From a virus, in IMG/VR virus record IMGVR_UViG_3300025769_000199, positions 1-48,721 of that record: DNA of 48,721 nucleotides. One strand, written 5' to 3'. The notes under the pieces were generated by a model. It was given only the letters and a program-made list of their open reading frames with translations, was not told the DNA's origin and ran no database searches. Both the position numbers and the translations under genes were made by a program. Numbering within the stretch: the stretch's first letter is position 1; every line of letters begins with the position of its first letter. Positions 8,174 through 12,440 of the stretch are shown piece after piece.

Positions 8174-8200
8174 AGTGGGGTCTTCGGACCCCACTTTTTT
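8174..8200 (+). terminator. Rho-independent terminator after gp32
   Basis: AGTGGGGTC-TTCG-GACCCCACT is a perfect stem with a stable TTCG tetraloop, followed by T6 ending at 8200. It lies between convergent gp32 and the minus-strand tail genes and overlaps the stop of the tape-measure gene. Confidence 0.93.
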
Positions 8201-9644
8201 AATATACGGGAGTAGCTCGGCCGGTTGGGGTGCCAATCGGTCCATCTGTTGTTGGTGATTTTGGTTCTGTTGGATTTACAATTGTAGTGTTATTATTTGT
8301 TGTAATTTGTTGTATCGATTCACCCAATCGATCTACTTGATCCTGTTGCGATCCTCCCCGAGTAGAATCTGCGAGTGGTGATATTGAGTTGCCGCCCGCG
8401 CCAGTCTCCAATGTACTTTGAGCTAGTCGATCAGCATCGGGACCGATGCCCAGTTCGAAAGCAAGAGCGGCCGCGCCCGTATCGGTCCTAAGATCTTCAC
8501 CCGTAAAGAAATTTTTAGCGACTGTTAAGGCATCCATCCCACGACCAAGAGGAGTTAAAGAAAATGCAGCATTGGCTATGCTTTTTAATCTACCCGAAAA
8601 GGAATCATCATAATATATTTCATCATTCCTTACTTTCATTTCCCTGTCCCGACCTGCAACCTTAATTTGTTGTTGTTCCATTACGGCCGCATTTCCCGAA
8701 TCAATTGCCATACCTGTTTTTGTACTCATTACTTCAGATCCGGCGGTCCTCGCGGACATCTTCTGTGAATCTTTTTCAAATTCATCCACAGCTGTTTGAT
8801 CTTTTTTACTCAGACTGTTGTAGTGATCTTTAGCTTCGTTTTGCGTCTCCAGAAGAATCTTATTTGCTGCTGCTGTTGATTTGTTGAGTTTATTTAATTC
8901 TTCCTCTGGGTCGAATAGTGCGTTCGCTATAGAGTCTCGTATGTCATCAGCAAGATCACTGTTTAAAAAAGCTATAAGTGCAGTTAGACCAGAAACAACA
9001 CCAACCAAAGGAACAGCGATTGGAGCAATTGCGGCTGCTACCGAACCCAGTATTCCGAGAAGAGGTAGAAGTCCTAACATTGACATCATTCCACTGCCAC
9101 CACCACCCGAAGCCGTTGTACCGTCAGCTCTCGTAAGTGCGGGCCGAGATTTCTCGGTACGTCTGCGTCGTGAAGATTCTCTTCTACTTTCCAAGTCGGG
9201 CATCGATCCCAGAATACTGGATGCAGTTGTTGAGATCTCTTCGAGTACGGTGGAGATTATATCTGTTGTAAAATTAAGACTGAACACATCATCAGCCATA
9301 TCACTCAATCTGGTTTCCAAACTAGACAGTCTGTTTGTGATGGACTCTCCGACTCCCTCGATGGCTTGTTGGAGGCCGGCCAGAGGTGAGTCCGTAGGCA
9401 TTGAGATTGCCGAATCCATTACTTCAGGTTCTAAACTGGATGGTTCGGCTTGTGGAGAACGTCTAGTTAGATTTATTTTACTCAGTAGTTTTTTACCACC
9501 AGCCATTGCAGCTAAAACTTCTGGTTCTGTCTGAGACAGAGCCAACGCCCCTATTGCTTGTGATCCAGTGCGAACAGATTTTTGTATTGCGCCGCCGACG
9601 GAACCCATTCCTTTTAATCCAGCGCCTAGTAATTTTGGAAGCAT
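8199..9644 (-). CDS. 29: Probable tail tape-measure protein
   Basis: A 481-residue minus-strand protein. Its N-terminus is hydrophobic and Gly-rich. A long region is predicted to be alpha-helical (ITNRLSSLETRLSDMADD). A Gly-rich linker precedes a strongly hydrophobic stretch at about residues 180-230 (MLGLLPLLGILGSVAAAIAPIAVP), as in tape-measure proteins. A coiled helical segment follows, then a Ser/Thr/Asn-rich tail. It lies directly after gp26 and the short chaperone-like ORF, the classical chaperone-then-tape order. At about 1.5 angstroms per residue it would measure a tail of roughly 70 nm. T4 gp29 (590 residues) is the counterpart by position; sequence similarity was not tested. A baseplate hub role is the alternative. 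Confidence 0.62.
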   Translation of the reverse strand: MLPKLLGAGLKGMGSVGGAIQKSVRTGSQAIGALALSQTEPEVLAAMAGGKKLLSKINLTRRSPQAEPSSLEPEVMDSAISMPTDSPLAGLQQAIEGVGESITNRLSSLETRLSDMADDVFSLNFTTDIISTVLEEISTTASSILGSMPDLESRRESSRRRRTEKSRPALTRADGTTASGGGGSGMMSMLGLLPLLGILGSVAAAIAPIAVPLVGVVSGLTALIAFLNSDLADDIRDSIANALFDPEEELNKLNKSTAAANKILLETQNEAKDHYNSLSKKDQTAVDEFEKDSQKMSARTAGSEVMSTKTGMAIDSGNAAVMEQQQIKVAGRDREMKVRNDEIYYDDSFSGRLKSIANAAFSLTPLGRGMDALTVAKNFFTGEDLRTDTGAAALAFELGIGPDADRLAQSTLETGAGGNSISPLADSTRGGSQQDQVDRLGESIQQITTNNNTTIVNPTEPKSPTTDGPIGTPTGRATPVY

Positions 9645-9842
9645 TTACTTTCCTCTTTGTTTGGATTGACGTTCTCTGGCCTCGTCCTTTTGTTCTTTGA
9701 CCCAATTCTCAACCAATATCACATAGAGTTCTCGTTCCCACGGTAACATATTTTCCAAGTCCTCTAATGTATAGTTATGAAATTTCATTAGAGCAAAATT
9801 TGTCTGGTAGTAATTTGTCAATTCATCGTGGGCCATGATCAT
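9645..9842 (-). CDS. Short tail-assembly chaperone ORF (T part of a G/GT pair)
   Basis: A 65-residue ORF whose ATG (9842-9840) overlaps the gp26 stop as TGATG and whose stop abuts the ATG of the tape-measure gene. The sequence has YYQTNFALMKFHNYTLEDLENMLPWERELYVILVE, a pattern with a HNY helix and PWERE that recurs in short ORFs between tail chaperone and tape genes. A Lys/Arg/Gln-rich tail follows. It can be made alone by coupled re-initiation. It could also be a C-terminal extension of gp26 by -1 frameshifting on the T8 run at 9851-9844. In T4 terms it takes the place of gp51 or gp28, without clear similarity. Confidence 0.7.
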   Translation of the reverse strand: MIMAHDELTNYYQTNFALMKFHNYTLEDLENMLPWERELYVILVENWVKEQKDEARERQSKQRGK

Positions 9843-9853
9843 CAAAAAAAATC
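9842..9853 (-). promoter_or_regulatory. Candidate -1 frameshift site (T TTT TTT) at the end of gp26
   Basis: On the minus strand the gp26 frame reads GAT TTT TTT TGA. T TTT TTT (9851-9845) is a slippery heptamer one codon before the stop. A -1 slip leads into TTG ATG ATC ATG GCC, the open frame of the next ORF. Transcriptional slippage on T8 would have a similar effect. Confidence 0.6.
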
Positions 9854-10570
9854 AAAAATGTCTTTCACCTCCACATCAATTTTACCGTCCGGATCTGGGC
9901 ATTCGGCAGTTATCTTGATGTATGGGTACGGAAGACTCTCAAAATACTTCTGAATGTCTTTTAACTTTTCAATGGGAAATCCATCAATAAATTCGTTTAA
10001 CTCTTCTATACTATAATCTGATGTGTCATATACTGTTTCGGCGTCTGCGATCTCTTTTATGCAACTTGCAAGTATCGATGTGCTTAGATCGTCACCGGAT
10101 TCCATTTCACTCATCAACATGGATTCTTTTACTTTGGGTGGTCGTAGTTTAATCATTACCTCTGGTGTAATTTTCAGTTCCTTCTCGTAGTCAGAACCTT
10201 TCTTGATGTTCTTCACCTTCATGTTCTTCAAGACCATCACAGGGTTCACAGACTCACCACACGGACACTTGTATGCGAGTTTGATCTCTTCACCGACAGA
10301 GAACTCTCGAAGCTTTACCATAAGATAAACAAAGTCGGTCACACTCAGCTCGGTTAGATCATGATCACCTTGAACACACGCTTGCAATACCTCTAGGCAA
10401 TTTGATATTATGTGACTTCTACTTGCACCCGTAACCTCTTCACCAATTTCACTGGCAGTCATCAGTAGTGTTTTTTGTTCTTTCACTGTAAACGGACGAA
10501 TCTTTATCGTCTTGTTGCATATAGGCAATTTTACACTGTACGTCTTCACTGCAATTTTCGGTAATGTCAT
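9842..10570 (-). CDS. 26: Baseplate hub / tail assembly protein gp26
   Basis: A 242-residue protein (T4 gp26: 208). The ATG at 10570 has GGAG at 10580-10577; the frame is open farther upstream, but those codons overlap the divergent promoter region. The family pattern is clear: KTIKIRPFTVKEQKTLLM, VYLMVKLREFSVGEEIKLAYKC, and a CPCGESV zinc-like turn. These match the T4 gp26 hub family, which behaves as a tail-assembly chaperone. The last codons GAT TTT TTT TGA hold a T8 run, so -1 slippage would give a 308-residue fusion with the following ORF. Confidence 0.85.
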   Translation of the reverse strand: MTLPKIAVKTYSVKLPICNKTIKIRPFTVKEQKTLLMTASEIGEEVTGASRSHIISNCLEVLQACVQGDHDLTELSVTDFVYLMVKLREFSVGEEIKLAYKCPCGESVNPVMVLKNMKVKNIKKGSDYEKELKITPEVMIKLRPPKVKESMLMSEMESGDDLSTSILASCIKEIADAETVYDTSDYSIEELNEFIDGFPIEKLKDIQKYFESLPYPYIKITAECPDPDGKIDVEVKDIFDFF

Positions 10571-11060: not shown

Positions 11061-11697
11061 AAAAGAAAAAGATCCAATATCGATCCTCGAAAAATTCAAA
11101 GTTACCAAGAACCCCTCGCCCGCCAATGCAAAAAAGATGTATACGGAGGCAAGACAGGAATTGGGAACTGCTCTATACACTCCAGATGTATTTGAATCAT
11201 ATTCCAATCGAATCTACGGTAAGACTGAATTCAAACCTGTACTCAAAGAAGTCGGAAAGATGATTACCTTTCGTTACTTTCCCCAGACATATAAGACACT
11301 CCCATACTTTGATGCACAACCGTTGATTCTCATCGTGGAGGTTCCGGACAAGGACACAGTGATCGGTGTCAACCTTCACTACTATTCTATACAGGACAGA
11401 ATGAGAACTTTCTACTCAATGTGGCCGTTACTTACAGATAGAAATCTCGGAGAGCAAGCAAGATTTAGAATGTATTATAGAATAATATCAGAAAGTAAGA
11501 AATACATAAGAGGACTTGCCGGTTTAAAGGAATATAAAACAAATCGAATACGTTCGAGGGTATACGAAATAAACCCTAAATACTGGGAAACCGCTTTAGC
11601 TTTGCCTACAGAACATTTCATAAAGAAGAAGTCGCACGTTATACAGACGGAAACCAGTAAGAAGATAAGAAAACTTCTAGGAGAATCAAACAGATGA
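11053..11697 (+). CDS. Conserved T4-like morphogenesis protein, unassigned
   Basis: A 214-residue protein starting inside the end of gp4. It has a basic, alpha-helical N-terminus, then the segment GKMITFRYFPQTYKTLPYFDAQPLILIVEVPD and GVNLHYYS, then helices rich in Arg/Tyr. The K-T-L-P-Y-(F/Y)-D ... G-x-N-(L/M)-H-Y pattern recurs in phage proteins with contractile tails near gp4 and the baseplate genes. It may take the place of the DNA end protector gp2 or of a baseplate component. I cannot decide from sequence alone. Confidence 0.85.
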   Translation: MAKKEKDPISILEKFKVTKNPSPANAKKMYTEARQELGTALYTPDVFESYSNRIYGKTEFKPVLKEVGKMITFRYFPQTYKTLPYFDAQPLILIVEVPDKDTVIGVNLHYYSIQDRMRTFYSMWPLLTDRNLGEQARFRMYYRIISESKKYIRGLAGLKEYKTNRIRSRVYEINPKYWETALALPTEHFIKKKSHVIQTETSKKIRKLLGESNR

Positions 11698-12440
11698 TTT
11701 CACCAAAAGTAGATTTAATCAAAAATACTATTGCAAGGGGACAGAACATTGTTCATCCCTATGATTTTGAAATCATCTTACCCACTGGACCAACTACTAC
11801 AGTGTCCGCTCCCAATCGAACTGAAGCAATTCGAGAAAGAGAAGGACTGGAAAAGAAATTTAGATTCAGTAAACAGAACGTATTGGACATGAATGTGGCA
11901 GTGCGTTCCTTTACTTTACCTTCACGAACATCATCCAAACAGTCGGTGTATTATGGTGGACCTCTTCGTCAGTTTCCTTACATTTCAACTTACGATGGTG
12001 AAATCAACATGACTCTGTTGATGAGAAGAAATGATCCACTGCTATATGCTTTTCACGCATGGCAGTCGCTGGGGGTTTCACCAAGTTCAGGTACACTGAC
12101 ATATCAAGACGACTATACTACCGATATGACAATATTGATTCGATCAGTTACTAAGCAGGGAGTGGGACCGGTTCCTGCTTCTTCCCAATTAGGAACGCCG
12201 GGAAGTCCAACCCTGCAATATAATCTATCTAATGTCTGGTGTGAGTCTATCGGTCAAGTTCAGATGTCAAACGAATCTGCTAACGAAGCTCTGCTCTACA
12301 ACATCATCTTATGTTACAGAGATTTTACGACATCCACATTCGATGGTCCAGTTGAGCCAGGTGGAATACCAATGGATGTAAGAAGTGATCTTAACGATGT
12401 CACACCAAGTAACAATCCACAACAGATAGGTAACCAATGA
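11694..12440 (+). CDS. 54: Baseplate tail-tube initiator, gp54-like
   Basis: A 248-residue protein (T4 gp54: 320). It has the tail-tube fold signature seen in initiators: a conserved strand pair (MNVAVRSFTLPSR), then YGGPLRQFPYISTYDGEINMTLLMRRNDPLLYAFHAW, then a strand before the end (NEALLYNIILCYRDF). The T4 pattern of a tube-like domain whose centre reads R-x-x-D-P is matched. It would sit on the baseplate hub and prime tube assembly. The start overlaps the upstream stop (ATGA), and the next gene overlaps in the same way. The order gp54-gp48 is as in T4, though inverted. Assignment between gp54 and gp48 rests on pattern and size. Confidence 0.7.
   Translation: MISPKVDLIKNTIARGQNIVHPYDFEIILPTGPTTTVSAPNRTEAIREREGLEKKFRFSKQNVLDMNVAVRSFTLPSRTSSKQSVYYGGPLRQFPYISTYDGEINMTLLMRRNDPLLYAFHAWQSLGVSPSSGTLTYQDDYTTDMTILIRSVTKQGVGPVPASSQLGTPGSPTLQYNLSNVWCESIGQVQMSNESANEALLYNIILCYRDFTTSTFDGPVEPGGIPMDVRSDLNDVTPSNNPQQIGNQ

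Follow-up and report, generated by a model that had tools for sequence, protein, structure and literature searches.

A -1 programmed frameshift very probably makes the short and long forms of the tail assembly chaperone in the phage analysed here, judging from its sequence, and the mechanism is known in kind. By the window we mean the whole stretch of DNA that was analysed (48,721 nt). The window phage is a divergent marine-type T4-like phage; its portal protein has about 52% identity to those of Synechococcus phages, which were the closest among the best 15 of 2,504 matching records. In the proposed mechanism, most ribosomes translating gp26 would stop at TGA and release the short chaperone (TAC-N), and some would shift back by one base on T TTT TTT and continue through TTG ATG ATC ATG. 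The slipped ribosomes would produce a 308-residue long form (TAC-NC) with the gp51 tail as its last 66 residues, and the two forms would act on the tape-measure protein while the tail is being assembled, like G and GT of lambda.

The gp26/gp51-tail junction and its two protein parts

The features of the junction are as follows.

9842..10570, minus strand: gp26, short chaperone form (TAC-N), 242 aa; PF12322 E 1.3e-42, PHROG_150 E 1.5e-45
9868..9872, minus strand: GGAGG, Shine-Dalgarno-like, candidate stimulator, 16 nt upstream of the heptamer
9845..9851, minus strand: slippery heptamer T TTT TTT within the T8 run 9844-9851, read directly
9842..9844, minus strand: gp26 stop codon TGA with an overlapping ATG (TGATG), read directly
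9645..9845, minus strand: gp51 tail frame (TAC-C), -1 frame of gp26; PHROG_634 E 2.3e-24, PHROG_150 E 1.5e-7
9645..10570, minus strand: predicted frameshift product (TAC-NC), 242 + 66 = 308 aa, deduced from the frames and from T4 gp51, in which both parts are one protein
8199..9644, minus strand: 481-aa ORF, probable tape measure protein by place, length and hydrophobic segment

On the minus strand (10570 down to 9842) gp26 ends in GAC ATT TTT GAT TTT TTT TGA, where the T8 run occupies 9851 down to 9844 and the stop codon shares its last T. The -1 frame reads TTT TTT TTG ATG ATC ATG GCC CAC and is open to 9645, with 66 codons counted from TTG or 65 from ATG. Since this frame has a stop codon immediately upstream of the T run, so that the two parts overlap by 10 nt, the tail can be reached from gp26 only via a slip on that run. 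The initial annotation had described a gp26 end of GAT TTT TTT TGA, a -1 slip into TTG ATG ATC ATG and a fusion of 308 residues; direct reading confirmed all three, the 65-residue ORF that it named being the one counted from ATG. The run at 9844-9851 is the sole A or T run of at least 8 in all 48,721 bases of the window, versus a mean of 3.74 such runs in 50 single-base shuffles.

The two parts were identified from profile matches. gp26 scored 146.4 bits against PF12322 (cut-off 24.5) and covers positions 5-232 of 282 in PHROG_150. The 66-aa ORF matches PHROG_634, the gp51 family, and covers positions 235-280 of 282 in PHROG_150, directly past the end of gp26. In T4, gp51 has a PF12322 match at residues 1-201 and a PHROG_634 match at residues 147-246, whereas gp26 matches PF12322 and not PHROG_634; T4 gp51 therefore combines a gp26-like domain and the tail in a single frame, with T4 gp26 as a short paralogue. 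By homology, the 66-aa piece corresponds to the tail at the C-terminus of T4 gp51. The matches support gp26 and the tail as providing the two forms of a T4-like tail assembly chaperone, with a putative chaperone role. A search of NCBIfam assigned no credible family to gp26, to the tail or to the 481-aa neighbour, and none of the PDB sequences matched the gp26 profile at E 1.

The structural comparison used a predicted model of gp26 (pLDDT 90.7), for which 65 of the 78 cluster representatives and the window were aligned. Proteins annotated as baseplate hub subunits are among its matches in predicted viral structures. Foldseek against the PDB gave no significant match, with the HK97 chaperone 2ob9 at E 2.8 and 4.1. 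On re-alignment with VIA-align, the HK97 tail assembly chaperone 2ob9 came first (Z 7.9, 88 residues, rmsd 3.6) and 3fgx second (Z 7.5), with the next unrelated row at 5.0. For this model, the 2ob9 alignment is consistent with a TAC fold over the first 93 residues of gp26 but is no proof of it, as such Z scores can reflect common arrangements. The HK97 chaperone was absent from the match list of a T4-type gp51 model (8 sequences, pLDDT 82.3), an absence that excludes nothing. The earlier equation of gp26 with G and of the fusion with GT is supported, the structural part of the analogy being modest at these Z and E values.

Conservation of the frame and the slippery run

In order to count the arrangement among relatives, 276 loci were searched with a profile of each part, after removal of one locus (L001) that was a copy of part of the window. 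The parts were separate in 266 loci and fused, as in T4, in 7; the remaining 3 (L271, L273 and L275) had no tail match. A further 25 loci, taken in later (L277-L301), are in neither the 266 nor the clusters derived from them. The 266 loci form 78 clusters at 70% identity, and since some contigs were taken in twice (for example L002 and L014), the weight is carried by clusters and not by loci.

The tail lies at -1 in 266/266 loci with separate parts, and an in-phase T TTT TTN that leads by a -1 slip into the tail is present in 76/78 clusters (263/266 loci). The initial annotation had named, as evidence against its proposal, homologous phages with neither the T run nor the frame relation; none were found among these loci. 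The three loci without the heptamer are L102, L274 and L276, two of which are Ackermannviridae by record, and the third clusters with them. In the 76 clusters the heptamer is TTTTTTC in 38, TTTTTTT in 29 and TTTTTTA in 9, and the distance from its start to the start of the tail domain is 15 nt in 75 and 12 nt in one.

The same split in every locus with separate parts bears on whether the junction is an artefact, that is, a sequencing or assembly error in a homopolymer interrupting what is really one open gene. Errors are common in homopolymers, and in T4-type relatives the two parts do share one frame, but the 266/266 loci include the finished genomes of KVP40 and Aeh1, and T4-type phages retain a separate short form too. 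Short and long genes were both present in 7/7 T4-type loci and in 10/10 among the later loci, where the short gene of L279 is cut by the contig end. We rejected a sequencing error on the conservation of the split and regard its probability as negligible. In one T4-type locus, L285, the long gp51-type gene is itself split into two ORFs.

The T run is also far more frequent at the junction than its rate upstream would give. Upstream in the gp26 coding sequences of the 78 clusters, T TTT TTN occurs in phase 15 times per 15,480 codon positions; at this rate about 1.1 would be expected in the final 15 codons when all clusters are pooled, versus 76/78 at the junction. Phe-Phe pairs start with TTT in 68/68 cases within the last 15 codons and in 36/62 cases upstream (Fisher p 1.3e-10), where the shared ancestry of the clusters means that p values overstate independence.

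These counts also bear on two other ways in which the tail could be expressed. In the first, gp26 would stop at TGA and re-initiation at TGATG or the next ATG would yield the 65-aa gp51 tail by itself; the two products would be separate proteins, and the T run would reflect codon choice only. The window has the TGATG overlap and a second ATG, its lineage showing starts TTG, ATG and ATG at the overlap near the gp26 stop, and 37/78 clusters have a start codon no later than residue 5 of the tail domain. However, 41/78 clusters have no ATG, GTG or TTG through that residue (54/78 have no ATG), the T run is retained contrary to codon choice and at fixed spacing, and T4 makes the fused form. In Aeh1, where the tail is unannotated, the first tail start codon is 15 residues into the domain. 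The GGAGG of the window is about 28 nt from the ATG and so too distant to be its ribosome-binding site. We rejected the tail as an independent gene as a general rule, given the 41/78 clusters without a start codon, and consider separate proteins improbable as the explanation of the junction; re-initiation at TGATG may be an extra source of free tail in the window phage, besides the frameshift.

In the second, RNA polymerase would stutter on the T8 run and give mRNAs with an extra base, in which the tail is in frame. T8 is within the range of known polymerase slippage. The run is T6 in 46 of the 76 clusters and T7 in 21, lengths that are short for polymerase slippage, with T8 in 8 and T9 in one, yet the arrangement is the same; the conserved phase and a Shine-Dalgarno-like element point to the ribosome instead. 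Transcription slippage was rejected on the 46/76 clusters with only T6, and we consider it highly improbable. The -1 programmed frameshift is supported by the conserved -1 frame, the heptamer and the fixed spacing, as the initial annotation had proposed for this tail chaperone device; its observation was right and its mechanism largely right.

A variant was found in Ackermannviridae and their relatives. The three loci without the heptamer and the later loci L287-L301 carry a gp51-like tail at -1 and no X XXY YYZ heptamer, the tail matches of L287-L301 being weak (E 1e-4 to 2e-3). The 3' end of the Ackermannviridae-type gp26 is ATT TTC ATT TAA; XF4 has an overlapping TAATG, and the Kuttervirus type has ATT in its place.

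Several observations concern the public records. The gp51 tail was found by profile and is unannotated in Aeh1 (L099, 4745-4910), Cronobacter phage LPCS28 (L272, 3679-3841) and Synechococcus phage S-WAM2 (L103, 3005-3182). In Prochlorococcus phage P-SSM7 (L097, 4097-4192) gp51 is annotated solely from an internal start, as 96 nt that begin about 30 residues into the domain. The three loci with gp26 and without a gp51 profile match are Vibrio phage 1.255.O, Vibrio phage Kuja and Agrobacterium phage Atu_ph07, respectively, and in all three a small annotated ORF after gp26 is also at -1 by coordinates. Record MG010123.1 (32 kb), named Staphylococcus phage SAJK-IND, has a weak gp51-tail match like that of T4-group coliphages, and its label may be wrong.

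Upstream element, RNA structure and the downstream neighbour

A Shine-Dalgarno-like core lies at most 18 nt upstream of the heptamer in 49/76 clusters, compared to 6.2 on average in control boxes placed further upstream. A conserved Glu-Gly pair explains part of this excess, but the Glu codon of that pair is GAG in 34/42 cases versus 124/472 for Glu codons upstream. With a wider core set, the element is present in 64/76 clusters, and in 60 of those 64 it is at 7-9 nt. The GGAGG of the window lineage is kept in 7/7 rows listed, and in the window it precedes the heptamer by 16 nt, a greater distance than the 7-9 nt typical of other clusters. We take the positioned element as added support for the frameshift, which it may stimulate.

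The 60 nt from 12 nt after the heptamer start gave a mean folding z of -1.62 (n=76) versus -0.41 upstream (n=75). Absolute stability was not different, with an MFE of -5 kcal or lower in 50/76 sequences versus 138/228 controls, and no consensus RNA structure was found after the slip site. The downstream sequence of the window folds no better than its shuffles (z +0.68). A 3' stimulator is unproven in general, and there is no sign of one in the window.

A broader reading, which we offer tentatively and regard as plausible rather than probable, is that an internal Shine-Dalgarno element, held at an almost constant distance ahead of a T6-T8 slip site, tunes the frameshift in this family, that the window lineage lacks a reliable 3' structure, and that one junction has been solved in three ways: by a -1 slip here, by two paralogous genes in T4, and by a start-codon or weak-slip route in Ackermannviridae, where the -1 frame is kept without the heptamer.

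The 481-aa ORF begins right after the tail stop codon. Profile comparison of this neighbour with T4 gp29 gave a probability of 3.0, which is no match, and comparisons with the single neighbours of phiM19, KVP40, Aeh1 and Mosig gave 1.9 or less, with 27.2 for Milchi. The value of 99.4 for S-SSM7 is circular, because the S-SSM7 sequence was already in the profile from the iterative search (E 2.5e-18). The phiM19 counterpart of the neighbour matches tape-measure PHROGs (E 1.8e-5). A long ORF is in reach downstream in 70/78 clusters. The next large gene in Det7 and XF4 carries a gp5-like annotation and not that of a tape measure, so the rule of a tape-measure neighbour fails in places. Elsewhere in the window, 11694-12440 encodes a distant tail tube relative (PHROG_45, E 4.6e-17) next to the genes for the DNA end protector and the tail tube cap, and on this match it is possibly a second tube-like protein.

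Comparison with T4 and other known systems

In marine T4-like phages the small gp51 ORF most likely encodes the C-terminal part of a frameshift protein; several public genomes leave it unannotated or give it the wrong start. The counts over 78 clusters show how the separate genes 26 and 51 of T4 relate to the one-gene relatives. The window and T4 have the same two protein parts, but in T4 gp26 and gp51 are separate genes on opposite strands and there is no frameshift. Vladimirov, Gautam and Davidson 2022 (Virology 566:9-15) reportedly described T4 genes 26 and 51 as short and long forms, and frameshifting is said there to be conserved in several T4-like groups. The mechanism is already published for T4-like phages according to passages in two papers citing Vladimirov et al. 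2022: the PRFect paper (PMC10885494), where some T4-like phages are described as carrying a short TAC gene and a longer fused gene instead of frameshifting, and the Adele paper (PMC12846349), which mentions that TAC-N genes of T4-like phages have slippery poly-T sequences. In a passage of the review PMC3004832, gp26 and gp51 are listed as hub assembly chaperones. A gp26/gp51 frameshift in cyanophages was not named in the titles and abstract starts that we searched, and we make no claim that it is unpublished. The Shine-Dalgarno-like element, the counts over the clusters and the Ackermannviridae variant may be new details.

The TAC locus of Vandenendeviridae, as described for Pseudomonas phage Adele in part of PMC12846349, has a conserved GTTTTT at the TAC-N end and an uninterrupted -1 frame. 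It belongs to other phage families, and it is likened to the window by junction layout and not by PF12322 homology. Lambda G/GT consists of a short protein and a long form extended by a -1 frameshift, beside the tape measure gene. The window is likened to it by this layout of a short and a -1-extended form, and the slippery sequence of lambda differs from the heptamer of the window. In the -1 frameshift of E. coli dnaX, a Shine-Dalgarno-like sequence is upstream of a homopolymer-rich, A-rich heptamer followed by a dependable 3' hairpin. Although the A-rich heptamer and the hairpin set dnaX apart from the window, where no such hairpin was seen, both have a Shine-Dalgarno-like element before a homopolymer-rich heptamer.
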